Source of the DNA: Polaribacter sp. Q13
Lineage (GTDB): Bacteria; Bacteroidota; Bacteroidia; Flavobacteriales; Flavobacteriaceae
Length of the DNA: 64,000 bases
NCBI RefSeq assembly: GCF_016858305.2
Contig: NZ_CP074436.1
Location: 20,001-84,000 of the forward strand
Reading direction: 5' to 3'
In this document: piece after piece, positions 38,122-57,062 of the stretch
Position numbering within the stretch: position 1 is the stretch's first letter
Layout of the letters: each line of letters opens with the position of its first letter
Position numbers and translations under genes: made by a program
Notes under the pieces: generated by a model
Told to the model about the DNA's origin: nothing
What the model saw: only the letters and a program-made list of their open reading frames with translations
Database searches by the model: none

Positions 38122-39318
38122 ATGAAACCAGAAGACATTTTAAACGAAGATTTTTTAAAGCAATTTAAAAGCGGATCAGAACTTACTAATTTTTTAGAAC
38201 AGCTTCATAAGCGAGGCATAGAAAAAATACTTGAAGGAGAGTTAGATGCTCATTTAGACTATGGAAAGCATCAAAAAAGTAAATCAACTAATCTTCGAAA
38301 TGGGTATACCAAAAAGAAACTAAAAACAACTTTAGGGGAGACAGAAATAAACGTTCCAAGAGACCGTGAAAGTTCTTTTAACCCAATGATTGTTAAGAAA
38401 AGAGAAAGTACCACAGAAGGTATAGAAAACATTATAATTTCCCTTTATGCAAAAGGGATGAGTAATAGCGATATAGAAGAACAAATACGAGAACTCTACG
38501 ATTTTAATATCTCCACAAGCACTATATCAAGAATTACCGATAGTATCACCAATGATATTATAGCTTGGAAAAATAGACCTTTAGAAGCAACCTATCTTAT
38601 AGTTTGGATGGATGGAATCGTTTTTAAAGTTAGAGAAAACTCTAAAGTCATCAACAAAACCATTTACATCGCGGTAGGTTTGAGAACTGATGGAAAAAAA
38701 GAAGTACTTGGTTTATGGTTAGGTAAAAATGAATCTTCCGCTTTTTGGATGAGTGTTTTAACCGACATTAGAGCTAGAGGAACACAAGATATCTTAATCA
38801 CAGCAACCGATAATTTAAATGGATTTACAGATACAATTAAAACTGTTTTCCCTAATTCTGTTACTCAAATATGTGTGGTGCATCAGATTAGAAACTCCTG
38901 TCGTTACGTTGTTTGGAAAGATAAAAAAGAGTTTACCAGAGACATGAAACAAATCTATACTGCACCGACAAAAGAAGCAGCAAAGGCATCCTTAAAAGAT
39001 TTTAAAGATAAATGGGATTCTAAATATTCTTATGCGATTAAAAGTTGGGAAAATAACTGGGATGAACTTACCGTTTTCTTTGATTTCCCTATAGAAATAA
39101 GAACTATAATTTATACCACAAATCTTATAGAAAATCTCAACGGGAAAATTAGAAAATATACTAAAAACAAACTCTCGTTCCCAACCGATGAAGCTGTCAT
39201 GAAATCTGTTTTTTTAGCACTGAGAGAAAGTACTAAAAAGTGGACAATGCCAATTAGAAATTGGGGAGTTATACTTAATCAATTTTTAGCTATATTTGAA
39301 AACAGGATTAAACTATAA
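38122..39318 (+). CDS. IS256-family transposase
   Basis: 398 aa, full length for the family. The N-terminal DNA-binding part carries [22 protein letters not shown] near residue 41 and [17 protein letters not shown] near 72. The RNase H-like core has the DDE triad at Asp164 ([12 protein letters not shown]), Asp230 ([12 protein letters not shown]) and Glu338 ([19 protein letters not shown]), with the CVVHQIRNS block near 251. No frameshift or stop, so it is probably active. It is the only intact mobile gene in the window. Confidence 0.96.
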
Positions 39319-46322: not shown

Positions 46323-47891
46323 ATGGATGGAATGATACTTCCCATTATTGTGGGAGTTTTGATAGGAATTGCAGTTGGATTTTTAATTGCAAAAGCGATG
46401 GAAAAAGCAAAAGGCAAAAAGATACTTAGTGGCACTAGAAAAGAAGCCGCTACAATCTTAAAAGAAGCAAAAATAGATGCAGAATCTGTAAAAAAAGAAA
46501 AAATACTTCAGGCGAAAGAGAAGTTTATTGAATTAAAATCTGAGCATGAGAAAGTAATTCTTACTAGAGAGAAAAAGATTTCTGATGTAGAGAAGCGTAT
46601 AAGAGATAGAGAATCTCAAGTTGCTTCTGAAGTAGATAAAAACAAAAGATTAAACAAGTCTTTAGAACATAAAGAAGGTGAGTTTAATAAAAAATTAGAC
46701 TTTTTAGAAAACAAAGAATCAGAGTTAGAAAAAATGCACAAGCGTCATGTAGACATGCTAGAGCAAATTTCTGGTTTATCGGCAGAAGATGCAAAAAAGG
46801 AATTGATAACTTCTTTAAAAGATGAAGCTAAAACAGAAGCAATGGCTTTTGTACAAACTTCTATTGAAGAAGCAAAGTTAACAGCAGAACAAGAGGCTAG
46901 AAAAGTGGTTTTAGGAACCATACAAAGAGTAGGTGTAGAGCAAGCAGTAGAAAACTGTGTGTCTGTATTTACTTTAGAGTCAGATGATGTTAAAGGTAGA
47001 ATTATTGGTAGAGAAGGACGTAATATTAGAGCTTTAGAAGCTGCAACGGGTGTAGAAATTATTGTAGATGATACTCCAGAAGCTATTATTCTTTCTTGTT
47101 TTGATCCTGTTCGTAGAGAGATTGCAAGGTTATCTATGCATAAATTAGTAACCGATGGTAGAATTCACCCTGCAAGAATAGAAGAGGTTGTTAAAAAGAC
47201 AGAAAACCAAATTACCCAAGAAATTATTGAGGTTGGTAAAAGAACTGTAATTGAGTTAGGGATTCACGGATTGCATCCAGAATTGATAAAAACAGTAGGT
47301 AGAATGAAATATCGTTCTTCATACGGACAAAATTTATTACAACACTCGCGTGAAGTAGCAAATCTTTGTGGAATTATGGCTGCAGAAATGGGCTTAAATT
47401 CTAAAGTTGCAAAACGTGCTGGTTTGTTACATGATATTGGTAAAGTGCCAGATACAGAAAGCGAACTTCCACACGCATTGTTAGGTATGGAATGGGCTGA
47501 AAAGTATGGCGAAAAACCAGATGTTTGTAATGCTATTGGTGCTCACCACGATGAAATTGAAATGAAAACCTTAATAGCGCCAATTGTACAAGTTTGTGAT
47601 GCTATTTCAGGAGCGAGACCAGGAGCAAGACGTCAGGTTTTAGATTCTTACATTCAACGTTTAAAAGATTTAGAAAACATAGCATTTGGTTTTCCAGGTG
47701 TTCAAAAAGCGTATGCTATTCAGGCAGGACGTGAATTACGTGTAATGGTAGAGAGTGGTAAAGTAAATGATACCAAAGCTGCTGAATTATCTTTTAGTAT
47801 TTCTCAGAAAATACAAAACGATATGACGTATCCAGGTCAAGTAAAAGTAACTGTTATTAGAGAAACAAGAGCGGTGAATGTGGCGAAGTAA
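46323..47891 (+). CDS. rny: Ribonuclease Y
   Basis: Membrane-anchored endoribonuclease that starts mRNA decay, 522 aa (normal length). N-terminal anchor [20 protein letters not shown] at about 6-26, a long charged coiled coil (about 30-150), a KH domain near 210-270 ([24 protein letters not shown]), and an HD phosphohydrolase domain near 335-430 ([75 protein letters not shown]). It follows zapA and the 6S-like RNA on the same strand. Confidence 0.97.
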
Positions 47892-48287
47892 AAGCCTATC
47901 ATAATCTTCCGGAAGGGAAGAGACATTTTTGTGTTATCAAGATATTTTTAAAAATCCCTACCATGTTTATGGTAGGGATTTTTGCTTTGAAACATTTCTT
48001 CGTAATTATAGGTTTTACTTTCAATCTAATTTCGAATCTTTAATACCAACGGCATTATAGAACCCGATAAACTAAAAATTAATTAACCTTAAGTGTATTC
48101 TTAAGGTTTTCTATATGGCCTTATTTCTTAAATTAATGTTAATTTATGATGAAAAGTACCGCTCTAGGTAACACAATCTTATCTTGTTATTTGGTTTTGG
48201 TTGCAATATACTAACGTTCGTTTTAGGTTGATTTAACTTAATATATTTTGCTTTGTAACTCAATTACAAAACTAAATCAACTATAAA
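47892..48287. other. 396-base spacer with hairpins
   Basis: Holds a CTTCCGGAAGGGAAGAG word (47907-47923) that resembles the CCTTCCCTTCGGGAAGG hairpin near 56140, the rny terminator (47949-47984), a second weaker hairpin AACCTTAAG-TGTATT-CTTAAGGTT (48085-48108), and about 180 AT-rich bases before susC. I cannot place the susC promoter with confidence; TATATTTTGC near 48244 is the nearest match to the -7 element. Confidence 0.5.
47949..47984 (+). terminator. rny terminator
   Basis: AAATCCCTACCA-TGTTTA-TGGTAGGGATTT hairpin with a short T-tail, about 60 bases after the rny stop. Confidence 0.75.
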
Positions 48288-51200
48288 ATGAAACACAAAT
48301 TTTTAATTTTAATGTCACTTTTTCTGGGGACAATTGCTTTTTCTCAGCAAGTTTTAACAGGGAAAATAATAGATGAAACAGGTATTCCTTTAATGGAAGC
48401 AAGTGTTCATATTATAAAAGGTAATAAATGGACTACTTCTAATATTGATGGAGAATTTAAAATAGAATTTAAAGATGAGCATAGTAAAATAAAAGTAGAA
48501 TTTCTCGGGTACCAAAGCAAAGAGATTGTTATTGGAAACAGAAAAAATATTACCATAACGCTATTACCCGAAGTAAATGCTTTAAGTGAGGTTATTGTTA
48601 CTGCTTTAGGTATTAAAAGGGCACAAAAGAAAGTAGGGTATGCTACTCAGCGAGTAGATGCTTCTACCATAAAAGAAGTTGTTGCTCCAAATGCAGCAGG
48701 TTTAATTACGGGAAAGGTTGCCGGTTTAACGGTTAGTAATCCAACAGGTTTATTTCAAGCTCCTTCATTTACATTAAGAGGGAAATCTCCATTAATTGTC
48801 GTGGATGGTATTCCTGTAAGCACAGATTTTTACGATATTTCTCCGGATGATATTGTAGATATTACGGTTTTAAAAGGAACTTCTGCATCTGCCTTATATG
48901 GGTATAGAGGAGGGAATGGAGCCATACAAATTACAACTTCTAAAGGTCAGAAATCAGACGGATTAGAAATTACAGTTTCTCATAACACGATGGTGAGTGC
49001 AGGTTTTACGGTTTTTCCAGAAACTCAAACAGAATACGGAAATGGTTCTAACGGAAAATATGAGTTTTGGGACGGACAAGATGGTGGTATTTCTGACGGA
49101 GATATGATTTGGGGACCAAAATTTGAGCCTGGTGTAAAAATAGCACAATGGAATAGTCCTATTAAAGACAATGTTTCTGGTGATGTTACTCCTTGGTGGG
49201 GAGATGTAAGCGGAACAAAATACGATGATAAATCTCGCTATTCTAGAGTGCCAACTGATTGGGAATATCATAACAACTTAAAAGATTTTTTAAGAACAGG
49301 AGTTATCAATACCACTTCTTTTTCTGTTGCCAACTCAACAGCAAGAGGTTCTTATAGATTATCGGGTAATTACAAATCTCATACTGGTAGAGTACCAAAT
49401 ACCAATTTAAAAACGGGAGGGTTAACTTTTAATTCAACAACAAAATTATCAGATAAATTAACCTTAGATAGTAAGTTGGCGTATAATAAAGTGTTTTCTC
49501 CTAATTATCCAAGACATGGTTACGGTCCTAAAAACCACATGTACACTATTTTAATTTGGATGGGAGATGATGTAAACGGAAAAGAATTAAATGAACACAG
49601 ATATATTCCTGGTCAAGAAGGATATAGACAAGCAAACTTTAATTACGCTTGGTATAACAATGTATATTTTGCTGCTCATGAGTTAAATCAGCGATATGAC
49701 TCTAATGTTTTAAACGGGCAATTAAAATTAAATTATCAATTTTCAGATGATTTCAGTATTCAGGCAATGGGATCTTCTGTAATGAAACATCGTTTTGAAA
49801 ATAGAGAAAGTCCGAAATCTTATTTAAACTACGGAGACCCAAGAGATGGAGATTACAAAACTTGGAATACTAGTTCTGTGGATGTAGATTATAATGTTTT
49901 AGCTACCTATAATAAAAAAATTACAGATAAATTTTCTTTAGGTGTCAATGCAGGAGCTTCATCAGAATACCATAAATACCAACAAGAATACAATGCTACA
50001 GATGGTATTATAGTGCCAGAATTGTATAGTTTAAACAATACAAAAGGAAATATAAAAGGAGCAACTGAATTTTCTGAAAGATCTGTAAACAGTTTATACG
50101 GAATGTTAGAGTTAGATTTTGATAATAAATTATTCTTAACATTTACAGGTAGAACAGACAAACACTCTACATTACCAATAGATAACAACTCATTATTTTA
50201 TCCATCGGTATCTTTAAGTAGTATGCTTTCGGAATGGTTTAAATTGCCAGAATCTATCAATTACTTAAAAGCATTTGGGTCTTGGGCTCAGGTAAAAAGA
50301 TCTTTAAGTGCCTATCAAATTAATTCTTATTATGACAACGCAGGTACTTTTAACGGTAGCCCAGAATTATCGTATTCAGGTAGTTTGGTAAACCCAGATA
50401 TTGAAGGATCTTTAACAACCAATGTAGAATTAGGTTTTAGCGCAGGTTTCTTAAACAATAGAATAGGATTGGATTTTGCGTACTATAATGCCGTTGATGA
50501 AAACTCAATTATAGATTTACCAATTTCTTTAGGATCTGGTTTTTCATCAAGAAAAGAAAATGCACACCAATTTACCACCAATGGTTTGGAGGTTTCAGTA
50601 AGAGCTACACCAATTAAAAATGCAGATTTTAGATGGGATGTGTTAGCTAACTGGTCTAAAAAAGTACAACGATTAACAAGATTAGATGAAGGCGCAGAGC
50701 AGTACAACAGTTTACGATTAAATGATAGAACAGATGCGTATTATGCAACCGTTTGGGAAAAATCTGCAGATGGAGAATTAATCTTAGATGCAAATACAGG
50801 GATGCCAACTAAAAATCCGTATCAACAAAATATAGGAAACAAGAATCCTGATTTTAGGTATGGTTTAGAAAATACTTTTAAATACAAAGGATTTTCTTTA
50901 AAAGTAGGTATAGATGGTGTTTGGGGAGGTTTAATGAGATCTAAAACTGTAGAAAAAATGTGGTGGGGTGGTAAACATCCAAACTCTACGGAATATAGAG
51001 ATGTAGAATATGCTCAAGGAATTGGAACCGTGTATGTGCCAACAGGTGTAAATGTAACAGGAGGTTCTGTGCAAAGAGATTTAAGCGGAAATGTTACTTC
51101 AGATACTAGAACCTATGCAACACATACTTCTCCAGTGAGTTGGCAAGCTTGGTCGCAAAACTATCCGTATAGAGCGCAGGTAACACAAAAAGAAAGCAAA

Positions 51201-51437
51201 ACTTTTGCTAATGTTTTCGATAGATCTTATCTAAAATTAAGAACGGTAGCTTTAAGTTACGATTTAACAAACGTGCTTAAAGTAAAAGGCATCAAACAAA
51301 TTAATGCAAGTCTAAATGGTTACAACTTATTCATCTTAAAAAAAGCAGATATTATTGATCCAGACTTTGGTAATGATGATGATTTACAAGATCCTTCTAC
51401 AAGATATTTAGGTTTAGGTTTAACTTTTAAATTTTAA
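48288..51437 (+). CDS. SusC/RagA-type TonB-linked transporter
   Basis: A 1049-aa outer-membrane importer. Signal peptide MKHKFLILMSLFLGTIAFSQ; a CarboxypepD_reg domain at about 20-95 (VLTGKIIDETGIPLMEASVHI); a plug at about 105-225 with the SusC signatures ALGIKRAQKKVGYATQ, PLIVVDGIPVSTDFYDISPDDI, TVLKGTSASALYGYRGGNGAI; and a barrel to the end (RYLGLGLTFKF). SusC channels work with the SusD lipoprotein, encoded five bases downstream. Two phosphoesterase genes follow, so the cargo is probably a phosphate ester or phosphodiester rather than a plain glycan. Confidence 0.95.
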   Translation: MKHKFLILMSLFLGTIAFSQQVLTGKIIDETGIPLMEASVHIIKGNKWTTSNIDGEFKIEFKDEHSKIKVEFLGYQSKEIVIGNRKNITITLLPEVNALSEVIVTALGIKRAQKKVGYATQRVDASTIKEVVAPNAAGLITGKVAGLTVSNPTGLFQAPSFTLRGKSPLIVVDGIPVSTDFYDISPDDIVDITVLKGTSASALYGYRGGNGAIQITTSKGQKSDGLEITVSHNTMVSAGFTVFPETQTEYGNGSNGKYEFWDGQDGGISDGDMIWGPKFEPGVKIAQWNSPIKDNVSGDVTPWWGDVSGTKYDDKSRYSRVPTDWEYHNNLKDFLRTGVINTTSFSVANSTARGSYRLSGNYKSHTGRVPNTNLKTGGLTFNSTTKLSDKLTLDSKLAYNKVFSPNYPRHGYGPKNHMYTILIWMGDDVNGKELNEHRYIPGQEGYRQANFNYAWYNNVYFAAHELNQRYDSNVLNGQLKLNYQFSDDFSIQAMGSSVMKHRFENRESPKSYLNYGDPRDGDYKTWNTSSVDVDYNVLATYNKKITDKFSLGVNAGASSEYHKYQQEYNATDGIIVPELYSLNNTKGNIKGATEFSERSVNSLYGMLELDFDNKLFLTFTGRTDKHSTLPIDNNSLFYPSVSLSSMLSEWFKLPESINYLKAFGSWAQVKRSLSAYQINSYYDNAGTFNGSPELSYSGSLVNPDIEGSLTTNVELGFSAGFLNNRIGLDFAYYNAVDENSIIDLPISLGSGFSSRKENAHQFTTNGLEVSVRATPIKNADFRWDVLANWSKKVQRLTRLDEGAEQYNSLRLNDRTDAYYATVWEKSADGELILDANTGMPTKNPYQQNIGNKNPDFRYGLENTFKYKGFSLKVGIDGVWGGLMRSKTVEKMWWGGKHPNSTEYRDVEYAQGIGTVYVPTGVNVTGGSVQRDLSGNVTSDTRTYATHTSPVSWQAWSQNYPYRAQVTQKESKTFANVFDRSYLKLRTVALSYDLTNVLKVKGIKQINASLNGYNLFILKKADIIDPDFGNDDDLQDPSTRYLGLGLTFKF

Positions 51438-51442
51438 TAAAA

Positions 51443-52918
51443 ATGAACAATTTTAAAATAATATTATTTTTAATGATGGCTGTTGTTATGTCTTCTTGCG
51501 AAGATTTAGATATCAATGACAATCCAAATAAAGTAAGTGTAACGCATCCAGATTTATTACTGACTAATATTGCAACTTCTGCTTTTCAAGTGAAAGGAAC
51601 TGGCGGAATGTATGCTTCTAGAATGCTTGTGCAGACCGATGGTGAAAGTGCTTCGCAGTTTTACAAATGGGACAGAGATAGTTTTGACGCTTATAATAGT
51701 TTAAGACAAGTGACTAAAATGATGGAAGAAGCAGACAGAATAGTAGACGATTCTTACAAAGGAATTGGTTACTTTTTTAGAGCATATTATTTTTATGATT
51801 TGGCATTAACTTTTGGAGATGTGCCTTATGCAGATGCTTTAAAAGGAGAATCAGATAAATTATATCAACCAAAATATAGTTCACAAGAAGATGTTTTTAG
51901 AGGGATTTTAAAAGAGTTAGCAGAGGCAAATTCATTGTTAAATGGTACAGATATCATTACCGGAGATCCTATTTTTAATGGAGATGTTAGTAAGTGGAAA
52001 AAGTTAGTCAACTCTTTTCGTTTAAAAGTATTATTAACGCTTTCTAAAAAGGAAGGAAGCTCTTCTTTAAATATTAAAAATGAATTTGCATCTATTTATA
52101 ATACTGAATCAATCATTGCAACTCCAGAAGAAAGTGCACGTTTAGAATTTGTAGATGTGGTAGATTCTAGATATTCAGAATTCAATTCTAGTGGTTATGG
52201 TTCTGGTTTATACATGGCGTCTACTTTTGTAGATATGTTAAAAGAAAGAGAAGATGCACGCTTATTTGCTATTGCAGGTCAAACTAAAAATGCAAAAGAA
52301 GCAGGTTTGTCTATTGGTGATTTTACTGCGTACGCAGGAGGAAATCCTATTGCGGCTTATAACGATGTAAATTTAGTAGCTGCGGCAGGTAAAGTATCAA
52401 AAGTAAATGAGCGTTATACAAAAGATCCAACGGCAGAAGCACATAATTTGTTAAGTTTTTCTGAAGTTCAGTTTATTTTAGCAGAAGCAGCCGTAAAAGG
52501 ATGGATTTCTTCTACAAGCGCACTAATTTTTTATGAAAACGGAATCAAAGCAAACTTCCAGTTCTATAATACGTATGCAAAAGGATATGAAGCGTATTAT
52601 ACGCAAGCTGAAGCTGTAAAATATATTGCAGGAACAAAAGTGAACTTTTTAAATGCTAGTACTAATGAAGAAAAATTAGAATTAATTTTAACCCAGAAAT
52701 ATTTAACATCTTTTTTACAAGGAGGTTGGAGAATGTATTTTGATCATTTGAGAACTGGATATCCTGTATTTCCTTTAGGTTTAGGTACAGCTCCAACAAG
52801 ATGGATGTATCCTTTAGATGAATACAATAACAATTCGACTAACGTAACCGAAGCAATTGCCAGTCAATTTGGAGGTTCTAATGACGGAATTAGAGAAATT
52901 ACTTGGTGGTTAAAATAA
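51443..52918 (+). CDS. SusD/RagB-type nutrient-binding lipoprotein
   Basis: A 491-aa surface lipoprotein that closes the lid of its SusC partner. Lipobox: MNNFKIILFLMMAVVMSSC, lipid Cys at 19. The SusD-like alpha-helical TPR scaffold is seen in YKGIGYFFRAYYFYDLALTFGDVPYADALKGESD near residue 106, DVFRGILKELAEANSLLNG near 150, and LLSFSEVQFILAEAAVKGWI near 335. The end WWLK is common. It belongs to the nutrient-binding subgroup (SusD-like_2), which often serves loci other than classical starch use. Immediate partner of the SusC gene. Confidence 0.93.
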   Translation: MNNFKIILFLMMAVVMSSCEDLDINDNPNKVSVTHPDLLLTNIATSAFQVKGTGGMYASRMLVQTDGESASQFYKWDRDSFDAYNSLRQVTKMMEEADRIVDDSYKGIGYFFRAYYFYDLALTFGDVPYADALKGESDKLYQPKYSSQEDVFRGILKELAEANSLLNGTDIITGDPIFNGDVSKWKKLVNSFRLKVLLTLSKKEGSSSLNIKNEFASIYNTESIIATPEESARLEFVDVVDSRYSEFNSSGYGSGLYMASTFVDMLKEREDARLFAIAGQTKNAKEAGLSIGDFTAYAGGNPIAAYNDVNLVAAAGKVSKVNERYTKDPTAEAHNLLSFSEVQFILAEAAVKGWISSTSALIFYENGIKANFQFYNTYAKGYEAYYTQAEAVKYIAGTKVNFLNASTNEEKLELILTQKYLTSFLQGGWRMYFDHLRTGYPVFPLGLGTAPTRWMYPLDEYNNNSTNVTEAIASQFGGSNDGIREITWWLK

Positions 52919-52932
52919 TATAAAAACAAACT

Positions 52933-52966
52933 AAATAAGGTCGTAATTAAATTACGACCTTATTTT
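52933..52966 (+). terminator. Hairpin between SusD and the phosphatase genes
   Basis: A near-perfect palindrome (arms AAATAAGGTCGTAATT and complement) with a short T-tail. It may thin transcription so that SusC/SusD are made in excess of the two hydrolases. Confidence 0.65.
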
Positions 52967-52979
52967 AATTTATAATAAA

Positions 52980-54566
52980 ATGAAAAAAAATATACTTATT
53001 ACATTTTTGATATTGTTTTATGTTCCGATTTTATGGGCTCAAAAAATAGAAATAAAACCTTATTTACAAGACGCAGAACCAACTTCAATCAAAATTATGT
53101 GGCAAACAGATTTTGGAGAAGAATCAATTGTGCATTGGGGATTAAGCAAAAACAAATTAAAAAATAAAACAAAAGGAACTTCTTTTGATATTAATTTTTC
53201 AGAAAAACGAGTTCATGAAGTTGCTATAACGGGGTTATCAAGATTTACCACCTATTTTTATAAAGTACAAACAGGGAAAGCAGTTTCTGAAGTGTATCAA
53301 TTTAAAACTCCACCTTTTGCAGGTAGTTCTAAAAAAATAAATTTAGTTGCTATGAGCGATATGCAAAACGACTGGCAACATCCAACAAAGTTTCAAGAAG
53401 TGGTAGAAGAAGGTATTTTACCGTATTTTAAAAAGAATTTTGAAGGCGATCTTTCAGACAATTTAGCTATGGTGGTGATTCCTGGAGATTTGGTAGATAG
53501 AGGTACTACTTTTAATCAATGGGAAGATCATTTTTTTAAACAATCAGAAAAATTATTTTCTAACGTACCAGTGTACCCAGTTCCTGGGAATCATGAACGT
53601 AATTCAGATTATTTCTTTAAATACTTTAGTCTTCCTAAAAATGGAAGTCCGGAATATGCAGAGCACTGGTGGTTTAAAGATTATGCAAATACCAGAATTA
53701 TTGGGCTAGATTCTAATGACGGTTATCGAGATATAAAACAACAATTAGTGTGGTTAAAAGAGTTGTTAGCTAAAACAGCTAAAAACGATTCGATTGATTT
53801 TGTTTTTGCTCAATTACATCATCCTCATAAATCGGAATTATGGATTCCTGGAGAAGAAGATTTTTCTGGTGAAGTAGTAAAATTGTTAGAAGCCTTTAGC
53901 AAGGAATCTAACAAACCAAGTTTACATTTTTTCGGACATACGCATGGGTATTCTAGAGGACAATCTAAAGAACATAAACATCTTTGGGTAAATGTTGCAT
54001 CCGCCGGAGGCGCTATTGATAATTGGGGCGAATTTGAAGGTAGAGATTATGACGAATTTACGGTAACTCAAGACGAATATGGCTTTGTTTTGGCAACCAT
54101 AGACCCAGATAAAGAAAATCCTTCTTTTACCTTAAAAAGGATAAGTAGAGGTAATAATATCAAATTTAGAAATAACGAGTTAAGAGATAGTATTACTGTT
54201 TTTAAGAAAACAATTCAGCCAAATACACCTGTTTTAGCTAATTTTAGTAAAGAAGCAAAACCTACTTATAAAGTAGTTTTAAAGGCAAATTCTTTTAAAA
54301 GTGATAAAAAGAAGGCTTTTCATGCAGCCTCTAATTGGCAGGTGTCTACAACAGAAGATTTTGCTAAACCAGTGTACGATTCTTGGAAACAACACGAAAA
54401 TTGGTATTACAGAGAAAATAGACAAAAAGACGATGATTTAACGGATGAGGTTTTAGATAGAAAGCTAAATAATAACACAACCTATTATGTGCGTGTTCGT
54501 TACAGAGATCAATTTTTAAATTGGAGTAATTGGTCTATTATAAAAACATTTAAAACGATTAAATAA
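52980..54566 (+). CDS. Purple acid phosphatase-like metallophosphoesterase
   Basis: A 528-aa exported phosphoesterase. Signal peptide MKKNILITFLILFYVPILWAQ; a fibronectin-like N domain at about 25-110 (KIEIKPYLQDAEPTSIKIMW, typical of purple acid phosphatases); the metallophosphoesterase core with MSDMQND near 129, VVIPGDLVDRG near 163, PVPGNHERNSD near 200, AQLHHPHKSE near 279 and HFFGHTHGYSRG near 320, all metal-binding motifs; and a C-terminal fibronectin type III-like domain (TTYYVRVRYRDQFLNWS). It should release phosphate from esters outside the inner membrane. It overlaps the next gene by one base (TAATG). Confidence 0.9.
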   Translation: MKKNILITFLILFYVPILWAQKIEIKPYLQDAEPTSIKIMWQTDFGEESIVHWGLSKNKLKNKTKGTSFDINFSEKRVHEVAITGLSRFTTYFYKVQTGKAVSEVYQFKTPPFAGSSKKINLVAMSDMQNDWQHPTKFQEVVEEGILPYFKKNFEGDLSDNLAMVVIPGDLVDRGTTFNQWEDHFFKQSEKLFSNVPVYPVPGNHERNSDYFFKYFSLPKNGSPEYAEHWWFKDYANTRIIGLDSNDGYRDIKQQLVWLKELLAKTAKNDSIDFVFAQLHHPHKSELWIPGEEDFSGEVVKLLEAFSKESNKPSLHFFGHTHGYSRGQSKEHKHLWVNVASAGGAIDNWGEFEGRDYDEFTVTQDEYGFVLATIDPDKENPSFTLKRISRGNNIKFRNNELRDSITVFKKTIQPNTPVLANFSKEAKPTYKVVLKANSFKSDKKKAFHAASNWQVSTTEDFAKPVYDSWKQHENWYYRENRQKDDDLTDEVLDRKLNNNTTYYVRVRYRDQFLNWSNWSIIKTFKTIK

Positions 54567-55675
54567 TGAAAAGATTAAAATTATCAAGTGTTTTTTTACT
54601 GTTGATGTTAGCTGCGTGCTCTTCAGAAAAAAAAGAAATCAAAAAAATATTGAAAGACGATTCTAATAAAGTTTTTGTAATTACTTTAGATGGTTTGCGT
54701 TGGCAAGAATTATTCTCTGGAGCCGATTCTTTATTGGTAGAAAATAAAGAATATGTTAGTGATACAAAAGGATTGAAAACACAATTTTGGAGAGATTCTG
54801 CCACAGAAAGAAGAAAAGTGTTATTTCCTTTTATTTGGAATGAAGTTGCTAAAATGGGACAAATTCATGGAAACCGATGGCAAGGAAGTAAAATGAATGT
54901 AACTAACGGAATGCATTTTTCGTACCCTGGTTACAATGAAATTTTAACAGGAAAAGCAGACGATGCAAGAATTGATAGCAATCGTAAAATTCCGAATCCG
55001 AACCTTACTATTTTAGAAATAGCAGAAAATACAGAAGCTTACAAAGGTATGGTAGTAGCTTTTGGTAGTTGGGATGTTTTTCCGTTTATAATCAACGAAG
55101 AAAGAAGTGGTTTGTATGTAAACGCAGGTTTTAGAGAAGCAATAGGAACTGATTTGTCAGATAAAGAAGTTTTCTTAAATGAGTTGCAAGCAGAAACTCC
55201 GAGTCCTTGGGGTGGTGTTCGTTTAGATGTTTTTACACATCATTATGCTTTAGAAACGATTAAAAAGAAGCATCCGAAGTTGGTGTTTATTTCTTACGGA
55301 GAAACCGATGATTTTGCACACGATGGAGAATATGATGCGTATTTAAGATCGGCAAATAGAACCGATGCGTTCATCCAAAAACTTTGGAATTATACTCAAA
55401 AAGATCTTTTCTATAAAGGAAAAACGACTTTTATAATTACGACAGATCATGGAAGAGGTACAGCGCCTTTAGAAACATGGAAGCATCATGGAGACGCTAT
55501 TAAAGATTCAGACCAAGTTTGGGTACTTTCTTTTGGAAATGAAATTGAAGCAAAAGGAGAAATTATAACGGAAGAACAGTTGTATACAAATCAAGTGGCG
55601 GCTTCTGTAGCCAAACTTTTAGATGTAGAGATACCGACAGATTCAATAGGAAAACCATTTTCTTTTATAAAGTAA
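54566..55675 (+). CDS. Alkaline phosphatase-superfamily hydrolase, lipoprotein
   Basis: A 369-aa lipoprotein (MKRLKLSSVFLLLMLAAC, lipid Cys at 18) of the alkaline phosphatase/phosphodiesterase superfamily. Metal-site and fold cues: FVITLDGLRWQELFSG near residue 34 (first Asp), FSYPGYNEILTGKADD near 118 (nucleophile region, Asn-Glu-Ile where many members have Thr or Ser), LVFISYGETDDFAHDGEYDAYL near 240 (Asp and His ligands), TTFIITTDHGRGTAPLETWKHHG near 288 (Asp-His, then His). It probably cleaves a phosphodiester, phosphonate or sulfate ester. It is the last gene of the SusCD locus and starts inside the stop codon of the previous gene. Confidence 0.85.
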   Translation: MKRLKLSSVFLLLMLAACSSEKKEIKKILKDDSNKVFVITLDGLRWQELFSGADSLLVENKEYVSDTKGLKTQFWRDSATERRKVLFPFIWNEVAKMGQIHGNRWQGSKMNVTNGMHFSYPGYNEILTGKADDARIDSNRKIPNPNLTILEIAENTEAYKGMVVAFGSWDVFPFIINEERSGLYVNAGFREAIGTDLSDKEVFLNELQAETPSPWGGVRLDVFTHHYALETIKKKHPKLVFISYGETDDFAHDGEYDAYLRSANRTDAFIQKLWNYTQKDLFYKGKTTFIITTDHGRGTAPLETWKHHGDAIKDSDQVWVLSFGNEIEAKGEIITEEQLYTNQVAASVAKLLDVEIPTDSIGKPFSFIK

Positions 55676-56165
55676 GGAGTTGTTTTATCAACTTAAAAAA
55701 GGCTGTCTTTAAATTTATTTTTTGTCAATCTGAATTTATTTTAGGCTCCTATGAGGTTTGAATTTCAGTACGTTGAGATGCTGAAACAAGTTCAGTATTA
55801 CAAGCTTTAAACTTTTTTAGATAGTCTTTTTTATTTTGAATCTATTTCGAAACGCTCATTTCTAGTGATTTTTATTTTTCCTGAAATTGTATCGGGAATC
55901 ATTTTTTTTAACTTTATCAAAAAGAACACAAAGTATAGCTCACAAATTTGTCATTTCGACGCAAGGAGAAATCTCATAAAGTTGCTCAATTTTGTGTTCG
56001 TTTCTTGTGAGACTTCTACTAAAAGGTGATAGTGACACGATTATGGTTTTTACACAATTTTGTCTTTTTTATGCTGAAATTTCGGCAGAGAAATCCCAGA
56101 AAGTTACTCCGTATTGTAGATTCAAAAGCATGAGTTCCTTCCCTTCGGGAAGGTTAGGATGGGCT
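55676..56165. repeat. Repeat-rich spacer (490 bases)
   Basis: Between the SusCD locus and xerD. It holds dispersed hairpin copy C (55694-55834), a GTCATTTCGACGCAAGGAG-AAATCTC unit (55951-55978) with a second, weaker AGAGAAATCCCAGAAAGTTA unit at about 56088-56107, and CCTTCCCTTCGGGAAGG at about 56138-56154. All are of the dispersed kind often seen between flavobacterial genes. No coding frame is credible here. Confidence 0.6.
55694..55834 (+). repeat. Dispersed hairpin repeat, full copy C
   Basis: AAAAAAGGCTGTCTTTAAA at the left pairs loosely with TTTTTTAGATAGTCTTTTTT at the right. Inside are GTCAATCTGAATTTATTTTA and GATGCTGAAACAAGTTCAG. It aligns with copies A (1730) and B (40621). Confidence 0.7.
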
Positions 56166-57062
56166 TTACTTTCTAGGATGATAGGTTTCAACAACTTCCT
56201 TTAAATAACTTTTATCTAAATGTACATATACTTCTGTGGTAGTAATACTTTCGTGCCCTAACATTTGCTGAATAGCTCTTAAATCTGCGCCGTTTTTTAA
56301 TAAATGAGTAGCGAAAGAATGACGCAAGGTATGCGGACTAATTTTCTTCTTTAAATCAATTTCTAGAGCTAGATTTTTAAGAATAATAAAAATCATTTGT
56401 CTGGTTAGCCCTTTGCCGCGTCGGTTTAAGAAAACAGTATCTTCAAAACCTTTTTGTGGGTTTATATGCGTTCTAATTACTTTTATATATTGCGAAATAT
56501 ACTTTTGTGCATTGTAGTGAATTGGCACAAAACGTTGTTTATTTCCTTTTCCAATAACGCGTACAAAACCTTCTTCAAAAAATAAATCAGAAATTTTTAG
56601 GGTGATTAGTTCACTTACACGCAAGCCACAACTATATAAAGTTTCTAAAATAGTTCTATTTCTTTCGCCTTGCGGATGGCTTAAATCGATAGCAGAAATC
56701 AATTGGTTAATTTCATCTTCAGACAGTGTATCTGGTAATTTTCTACCAATTTTTGGAGCTTCAATTAAATCTGTTGGATTTGTTTTTCTATAATCTTCAA
56801 AAATTAGATAATCAAAGAAACTTCGTAAACCAGATATAATTCTAGCCTGACTTCTAGGATTTACTTTTTTAGCAACATCATAAATAAATTGTTGAATAGT
56901 TATTTCATCAATTGAAATAGGAGAGGAGTCAATTTCGTTTTTATCAAGAAAAAGTAGTAGTTTTTCTAAATCTCTAGAATAACTATCAATTGTATTTTGA
57001 GATAACCCTCTTTCTATTTTTAAAAATAATTGAAAATCTCTAATTGCATTTTGCCATTTCAT
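56166..57062 (-). CDS. xerD: Site-specific tyrosine recombinase XerD-like
   Basis: A 298-aa recombinase that resolves chromosome dimers at dif. N-terminal SAM-like domain (about 1-90: FQLFLKIERGLSQNTIDSYSRDLEKLL) and catalytic domain with the Arg in LYSCGLRVSELITLKISD near residue 145, the Lys in GKGNKQRFVPI near 172, the HxxR in PHTLRHSFATHLLKNGADLRAIQQMLGHES near 245 and the nucleophile Tyr in TTEVYVHLDKSYLKEV near 278. Single gene next to aroQ, a common flavobacterial arrangement. Whether XerC or XerD cannot be settled here. Confidence 0.93.
   Translation of the reverse strand: MKWQNAIRDFQLFLKIERGLSQNTIDSYSRDLEKLLLFLDKNEIDSSPISIDEITIQQFIYDVAKKVNPRSQARIISGLRSFFDYLIFEDYRKTNPTDLIEAPKIGRKLPDTLSEDEINQLISAIDLSHPQGERNRTILETLYSCGLRVSELITLKISDLFFEEGFVRVIGKGNKQRFVPIHYNAQKYISQYIKVIRTHINPQKGFEDTVFLNRRGKGLTRQMIFIILKNLALEIDLKKKISPHTLRHSFATHLLKNGADLRAIQQMLGHESITTTEVYVHLDKSYLKEVVETYHPRK

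Follow-up and report, generated by a model that had tools for sequence, protein, structure and literature searches.

A four-gene SusCD cassette of Polaribacter with two phosphoester-type enzymes, possibly for compounds carrying an aminoethyl phosphate or phosphonate group

The window, the whole stretch of 64,000 nucleotides from Polaribacter sp. Q13 that was analyzed (contig NZ_CP074436.1, positions 20,001 to 84,000), contains a cassette of four genes for a SusC/SusD-type importer and two phosphoester-type enzymes. All four reading frames are open and on the + strand. Three of the proteins were used for homology searches, and their nearest named kin were Polaribacter. The reading favored here, with slightly better than even confidence, is that the cassette is an accessory SusCD unit, which would take up and cut compounds with a 2-aminoethyl phosphate or phosphonate group. 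Candidate substrates would be remnants of phosphatidylethanolamine of the glycerophosphoethanolamine type, phosphoethanolamine, or esters of aminoethylphosphonate. Because kin genes sit in operons for the breakdown of ethanolamine and aminophosphonates, the cassette probably takes phospholipid-type headgroups and not sugars. Its components are as follows.

48288..51437, + strand: SusC-type TonB-dependent outer-membrane transporter, 1049 amino acids (TIGR04056, 466.8 bits, cut-off 368.25; PF13715, PF07715, PF00593).
51443..52918, + strand: SusD-type substrate-binding lipoprotein, 491 amino acids (PF12771, 209 bits).
52933..52965, + strand: hairpin of 15 pairs behind susD (palindrome and RNA fold).
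52980..54566, + strand: apparently secreted calcineurin-like metallophosphoesterase with a purple-acid-phosphatase-type N-terminal domain, 528 amino acids (PF16656, 69.4 bits; PF00149, 59.2 bits).
54566..55675, + strand: lipoprotein of the alkaline phosphatase (AlkP) superfamily with a lipobox, 369 amino acids (PF01676, 29.4 bits; PF01663, 24.6 bits; both above cut-off).

The susC and susD genes are separated by 5 bases, susD and the phosphoesterase gene by 61 bases, and the two enzyme genes overlap by 1 base. Coordinates and families bear out the original prediction, which had been made from the letters of the window, of a SusC/SusD pair at 48288-52918 and two downstream phosphoester-type enzymes, the last pair of genes overlapping by one base. 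Its statement that the locus lacks a glycosidase holds for the cassette genes: a family scan of these four found 0 glycosidases or other carbohydrate-active enzymes (CAZymes), and the glycoside hydrolase or lyase of a polysaccharide utilization locus is missing from them. The SusD protein does not match PF07980, which has 20 matches elsewhere in the genome of the window. Its nearest solved structures are 3ejn (E 6.8e-142) and 4ler (E 6.9e-134), with a ligand named for neither in the structure table, and a search of 20 relatives with this SusD at 1e-40 gave matches only in its own genome and in G001 (41% identity). With a consensus that we take to be that of the Bacteroidetes-type promoter, the sole match in the gap before susC was on the − strand, and 9 matches in the window compare with 9.6 expected by chance; sigma-70-type sites between 47800 and 56200 numbered 31, against 34.9 by chance.

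Loci related to the cassette were collected by scanning named genomes with a SusD alignment. This resulted in 355 relatives, the best 80 of which were kept, so that 81 SusD-clade loci including the window were available (L002, a 41% kin, was excluded; L and G numbers denote loci and genomes). Genes were labeled by blastp clusters, and one or a few members per cluster were scanned with Pfam or NCBIfam; the labels MPP and MPP2 were assigned by eye. The contiguous order SusC-SusD-phosphoesterase-AlkP, which the original prediction had proposed to look for in relatives, was found again at 8 loci among the 80 kin in this SusD-based set (L003, L007, L012, L013, L019, L020, L023, and L031). Within the same run, and without being exclusive, the 81 loci carry the labels phospholipase C (30 loci), phosphoesterase (20), AlkP (17), NPP-type (7), PbfA (7), ethanolamine permease (5), PF04185-related (5), PHP-like (4, the one member scanned being under the cut-off), GDPD (4), MPP (3), MPP2 (2), TIGR03364 (2), and PhoA-GDPD (1). 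The phospholipase C label stands for the phosphocholine-specific family TIGR03396 (769 and 688 bits in the two proteins scanned, cut-off 580) and is found in 19 Chryseobacterium, 9 Sphingobacterium, and 2 Flavobacteriaceae loci. On the tree of the 81 SusD proteins it changes 3 times, as forced by supported branches, with gains or losses both possible; the two Flavobacteriaceae loci with the phospholipase, L014 and L021, form a pair whose sister is a Zhouia locus with the phosphoesterase (L016).

A search with the metallophosphoesterase (E up to 1e-100) in 199 Flavobacteriaceae genomes from 198 genera found this enzyme in 19 of them. The window and 17 others of these 19 loci were examined (G035 was left out), and genes up to 8 genes away on either strand were considered neighbors. 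Genes for PbfA, a TIGR03364 protein, or a PhnX-like protein are near 10 of the 18 (L085, L088, L089, L090, L092, L093, L094, L096, L097, and L098) and ethanolamine genes near 2 (L091 and L100). Both searches together gave 34 distinct phosphoesterases, a set in which the SusD search and Arenibacter weigh heavily. Aminophosphonate genes are close to 19 of them and ethanolamine genes to 3, and 12 have neither nearby; a gene labeled SusD is in the run of 31. SusC-SusD-NPP-c44-PbfA-phosphoesterase-AlkP is a frequent long form. All 14 PbfA rows were over the cut-off of 525, and NCBIfam confirmed PbfA at L008, L085, L088, and L097 with 727, 626, 661, and 582 bits, respectively. A SusD of the clade of the window is present at the Arenibacter loci L008-L010, L015, L017, and L018 and at L026. 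In a phylum-wide search at E up to 1e-150, the phosphoesterase was found in 3 of 395 genomes, all in the same family; the homologue listing nonetheless contains matches named Cyclobacterium, Echinicola, Spirosomataceae, and Fulvivirgaceae.

At L023 and L031, genes for the ethanolamine permease, a GlnA-like protein, FeADH, a PuuD-like protein, and ALDH precede SusC-SusD-phosphoesterase-AlkP in this order. At L091 the same five are directly before phosphoesterase-AlkP, spaced by 31 and −4 bases, and the permease there has 448.9 bits (cut-off 381.75). L168 has SusC-SusD-AlkP followed by permease-GlnA-like-ALDH-FeADH. In G069 (L087 and L183), SusCD-AlkP, genes for PhnX-like, TIGR03364, and DUF5690 proteins, and ethanolamine genes are within one stretch. 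The function of the GlnA-like protein is putative because no NCBIfam cut-off was reached.

Across the 199 genomes, PbfA was over the cut-off in 12, the permease was found in 10 (E up to 1e-90; 9 over the cut-off), the AlkP protein in 25, and the SusD clade in 10. The phosphoesterase was present in 11 of the 12 PbfA genomes (p=2.4e-12) and the AlkP protein in 9 of them (p=3.2e-7). Together with the permease, the phosphoesterase occurred in 5 genomes (p=8.7e-4), the AlkP protein in 6 of the 10 (p=3.3e-4), and the SusD clade in 4 (p=6e-4).

In SusCD systems, SusD binds the ligand at the surface and SusC imports it, driven by TonB. By this mechanism, the SusD protein of the cassette would bind the compound at the surface and SusC would transfer it into the periplasm. 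The metallophosphoesterase may cut the diester or phosphonate ester and the AlkP-type lipoprotein may take the phosphate off the headgroup, an order of the enzymes that could also be the other way round. In the kin loci, an ethanolamine permease would bring in the released ethanolamine for degradation, or PbfA, together with the TIGR03364 oxidoreductase and the PhnX-like hydrolase, would process the aminophosphonate. The Polaribacter of the window would keep mainly the phosphate since it is without PbfA and the permease. The organophosphate uptake machine proposed by the original prediction is retained in outline as a SusCD importer with phosphoester enzymes, and “organophosphates” can be narrowed by the ethanolamine, aminophosphonate, and phospholipase C genes of the kin.

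A number of observations argue against an aminoethyl substrate or weaken the link to it. The genome of the window gave no match for the ethanolamine permease (TIGR00908) and no PbfA over the cut-off (best 224.7 of 525), and a search for the GlnA-like protein, made without a positive control, was empty; because of this, the substrate had to be inferred from the relatives. A catabolic locus for aminophosphonate or ethanolamine, as indicated by PbfA or the permease, exists in kin genomes and not in that of the window, and a complete pathway was rejected there as far as PbfA and the permease are concerned (PhnX-like and TIGR03364 proteins were not searched in this genome). The p values above are uncorrected for shared descent, and the SusD clade coincides with PbfA in only 3 of its 10 genomes (p=0.016). 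In the family sample, the SusD is only distantly related at 8 of the 10 loci linked to aminophosphonate genes (A1 202-256 versus 827-918 in the clade); the enzymes, rather than a SusD of the window type, therefore carry the link there. Neither gene set is near 6 of the 18 phosphoesterase loci (the window, L086, L095, L099, L101, and L102), 7 AlkP loci (L169, L170, L172, L173, L176, L177, and L181) have neither SusCD nor catabolic genes nearby, and 14 of the 81 SusD-clade loci lack a recognized phosphoester enzyme in the run (the tree script counted 15 because it considered only the downstream side). The permease of L168 (G099), with 356.2 bits, is under the cut-off of 381.75, and the SusD at this locus is from another clade. 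The three changes of the phospholipase label may be one gain and two losses. Finally, three Polaribacter loci are without one of the two enzymes (tblastn, 1e-20): the phosphoesterase is missing in L004 and the AlkP gene in L005 and L142 (G632). The AlkP gene is broken in L003.

A general phosphate-starvation locus of the PusCD type is a tentative alternative that we consider possible at well below even confidence. The SusCD pair would import mixed phosphodiesters such as nucleotides, nucleic-acid pieces, and lipid headgroups, the enzymes would have no preference for aminoethyl groups, and the kin neighbors would reflect shared low-phosphate regulation. In Flavobacterium, phosphate depletion induces PusCD loci that include phosphatases, according to the text of PMC8115612. 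A PhoA-GDPD gene is in 5 of the 34 phosphoesterase runs (PF00245 and PF13653 at L023 and L086), pf13653 being reported as the extra domain of PhoA1 of PUSII, and the genome of the window is without the catabolic genes tested. On the other hand, the co-occurrence with PbfA (11/12) and operons leading into the permease and carbon and nitrogen catabolism are more specific than scavenging would predict. In kin loci with carbon and nitrogen catabolism, phosphate starvation need not be the trigger. An extended form of the aminoethyl reading appears rather doubtful as a whole: the two enzymes would be dedicated to aminoethyl-phosphonate or -phosphate esters and form with SusCD a TonB-driven headgroup-ester route of marine Bacteroidota, with DUF5690 as the inner-membrane carrier in the kin and the Polaribacter cassette as a stripped, phosphate-only form.

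Uptake of a decorated glycan, with SusD binding the sugar part and the enzymes trimming phosphoethanolamine or aminoethylphosphonate from it, is improbable. SusCD systems are best known for oligosaccharides, and phosphonoglycans exist (PMC8316502, in its text). The four genes include no glycosidase, however, none was recognized between SusD and the enzymes in the part of the kin genes that was scanned, and phospholipase C, which often accompanies the SusD clade, suggests lipids. At L089, L092, L093, and L171, a second metallophosphoesterase-like gene (c60), a glycosyltransferase-like gene (c61), and a GH1-like gene (c89) were seen by eye close to the enzymes, which are perhaps genes for glycolipid remodeling.

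In the metallophosphoesterase, the motifs DMQ, GD, GNHE, HH, and GHTH are invariant in 17 aligned rows (alignment A2). In the AlkP protein, D42, S119, D248, H252, D294, H295, and H308 are invariant in 15 aligned rows (alignment A3). The invariant Asp and His residues of both enzymes are presumably metal ligands and S119 is the candidate nucleophile, so that the AlkP protein shows the metal ligands and Ser/Thr nucleophile of its superfamily. We take the tyrosine of GDxxY to be the tyrosine ligand of purple acid phosphatases; the 17 rows have D, E, V, Q, or S at this position, which rules out a true purple acid phosphatase. Of the predicted “purple acid phosphatase-like” enzyme, a PF16656/PF00149 phosphoesterase remains. 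Purple acid phosphatases and the diphosphonucleotide phosphatase of PDB 3zk4 share with it the PF16656 N-terminal domain and the PF00149 core, but the kinship to 3zk4 is weak (22.5 bits with the single sequence, 42.8 bits with the profile) and the cassette enzyme is without the tyrosine ligand. The predicted AlkP-superfamily lipoprotein was confirmed by PF01676 and PF01663 and by the lipobox; among PDB entries it has weak kin only (phosphoglycerate mutase 3nvl, E 0.0086). That it could be the sulfatase of a sulfate-ester locus is hardly credible: some kin are named “sulfatase-like” in databases and PF00884 matches weakly (20.6 bits, cut-off 25), but C/S-x-P-x-R, presumably the signature of type I sulfatases, was not found in the 15 aligned rows, with SYPGY at the candidate site, and the recognized partners are phosphorus enzymes. 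The sulfatase reading was rejected on this basis, and of the predicted action on phosphate, phosphodiester, or sulfate esters, the last is unlikely. Inspected by eye, the first enzyme carries an ordinary signal peptide, is without a lipobox, and looks secreted and soluble. The lipobox cysteine of the second is present in 5 of 15 aligned rows, including that of the window. A location of both as “surface enzymes” is accordingly uncertain.

The palindrome predicted at 52933-52966 is a real hairpin, located at 52933-52965, and its role as a terminator is putative. The RNA fold has −17.1 kcal/mol with a z of −5.95, and 0 of 200 shuffles were as good. The hairpin is kept in all 8 Polaribacter spacers folded, that of the window among them, and two of its pairs changed on both sides (G-C to A-T and T-A to C-G). 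It was not seen in the alignment of a ninth, unfolded Polaribacter spacer (L138), and in L004, which is without the phosphoesterase gene, the first 130 bases behind susD do not form it. Among the same-strand spacers of kin loci, stems with a minimum of 9 pairs occur in 41 of 60 behind susD, 16 of 60 before susC, and 78 of 252 other spacers (Fisher p=2.3e-7 for those behind susD versus the others, many rows being close kin). By these counts, a hairpin behind susD is common in such loci, which fits the idea of the original prediction that importer and enzymes may be kept at different levels.

Additional genes of the kin loci deserve mention. A DUF5690 (PF18943) membrane protein (L008:5330-6619, L096:10065-11366) is in the run of 10 of the 34 phosphoesterase loci together with PhnX-like and TIGR03364 proteins and is a candidate inner-membrane carrier of aminophosphonates; a full-text literature search for its name found nothing. 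Cluster c44 (L008:13560-14816, L088:5426-6709), about 420 amino acids and by eye like a metallo-beta-lactamase-type hydrolase, is in 11 of the 34 runs, mostly between NPP and PbfA, with a Pfam match in 0 of 2 scanned. A helix-turn-helix/cupin-type protein (by eye), encoded on the opposite strand between SusC and PhnX-like genes (L087:12490-13053, L093:16505-17071), is a candidate regulator.

In Polaribacter, the cassette is accessory and located behind rny. In the window it is between two genes outside the system.

46323..47891, + strand: rny (RNase Y), bordering the insertion site on the left (PF12072; Polaribacter synteny).
56166..57062, − strand: tyrosine-recombinase gene (called xerD by eye), right border, adjoining rny in 30 cassette-free Polaribacter genomes.

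The region from 47892 to 56165 is an insertion site that may hold the cassette, nothing, or other genes. A search of 58 Polaribacter genomes recovered rny from 55, and the stretch downstream of it was inspected in 53 (30 short and 30 longer stretches, 7 genomes in both). Behind rny, 7 of the 53 have the cassette (the genome of the window, G622, G623, G619, G632, G636, and G638) and 30 directly the recombinase gene; in 14 neither was within the inspected stretch, one stretch (L134) ends too soon, and one genome (G625) has other genes, by eye TerC-like, symporter, acetyl-CoA synthetase, and two-component genes. Beyond the cassette, as seen from rny, the recombinase gene is present in the window, G622, G623, G619, and G638 and in the named L003, L004, and L005; it was not in the stretch inspected for G632 and G636. 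An insertion sequence with a Mutator-family transposase (PF00872) is at 38122-39318, about 9 kb upstream of the cassette.

PbfA and the FAD enzymes of aminophosphonate degradation are treated in PMC8154272, PMC10590968, and PMC12366243, and PbfD1 is annotated in the TIGR03364 family in the texts of the first two. With the aminophosphonate clusters described there (PbfA, PbfD, PhnX), the kin loci share PbfA equivalogs, TIGR03364 FAD enzymes, and PhnX-like hydrolases, whereas the window has none of these genes beside the cassette and no PbfA over the cut-off in the genome; the main texts of PMC8154272 and PMC10590968 do not contain “TonB”. Transporters for aminoethylphosphonate in the sea are described in PMC8316502, which mentions AepP for Kriegella aquimaris, the source species of L031. 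The ethanolamine genes of the kin (permease, GlnA-like, aldehyde/alcohol dehydrogenase, PuuD-like) resemble the Streptomyces gamma-glutamylethanolamide route with GlnA4, as in the text of PMC6529630, and are paired with phosphoesterases; from ethanolamine-use systems, the genome of the window differs in being without the permease. Marine phospholipid-headgroup catabolism in Phaeobacter relies on PhoX and on EtoX, a transporter of the TRAP type, unlike the cassette (PMC10132767, with neither “Bacteroid” nor “Flavobact” in the main text). Apart from PMC8115612 and PMC8812569, which are on PusCD, a literature search found, in the titles and abstract starts among the matches listed, no account of how esters of aminophosphonates or of phospholipid headgroups pass the outer membrane of Bacteroidota; PMC11892949 added nothing in this respect.

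PusCD of Flavobacterium is among the closest known systems. SusCD loci for organic phosphate are already in print (PMC8115612; also PMC8812569), and the locus is to this extent not the “under-described system” of the original prediction. By gene family, the cassette shares two features with PusCD: a SusC/SusD pair beside phosphomono- or diesterase-type genes without a CAZyme, and PhoA-GDPD-type genes are near some kin loci. In contrast, PusD1 and PusD2, two of the six PusD forms, are pf07980/pf14322 proteins and the cassette SusD is PF12771, and “ethanolamine” is absent from the main text of PMC8115612. If the aminoethyl reading is true, Bacteroidota would have a SusCD-based entry point for headgroup esters, two hydrolase families would be tied to PbfA and ethanolamine operons, with DUF5690 as a candidate inner-membrane carrier, and these bacteria would have a part in recovering phosphorus, nitrogen, and carbon from lipids in addition to polysaccharides. 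Relative to PusCD, what is new is a likely substrate class for the locus.

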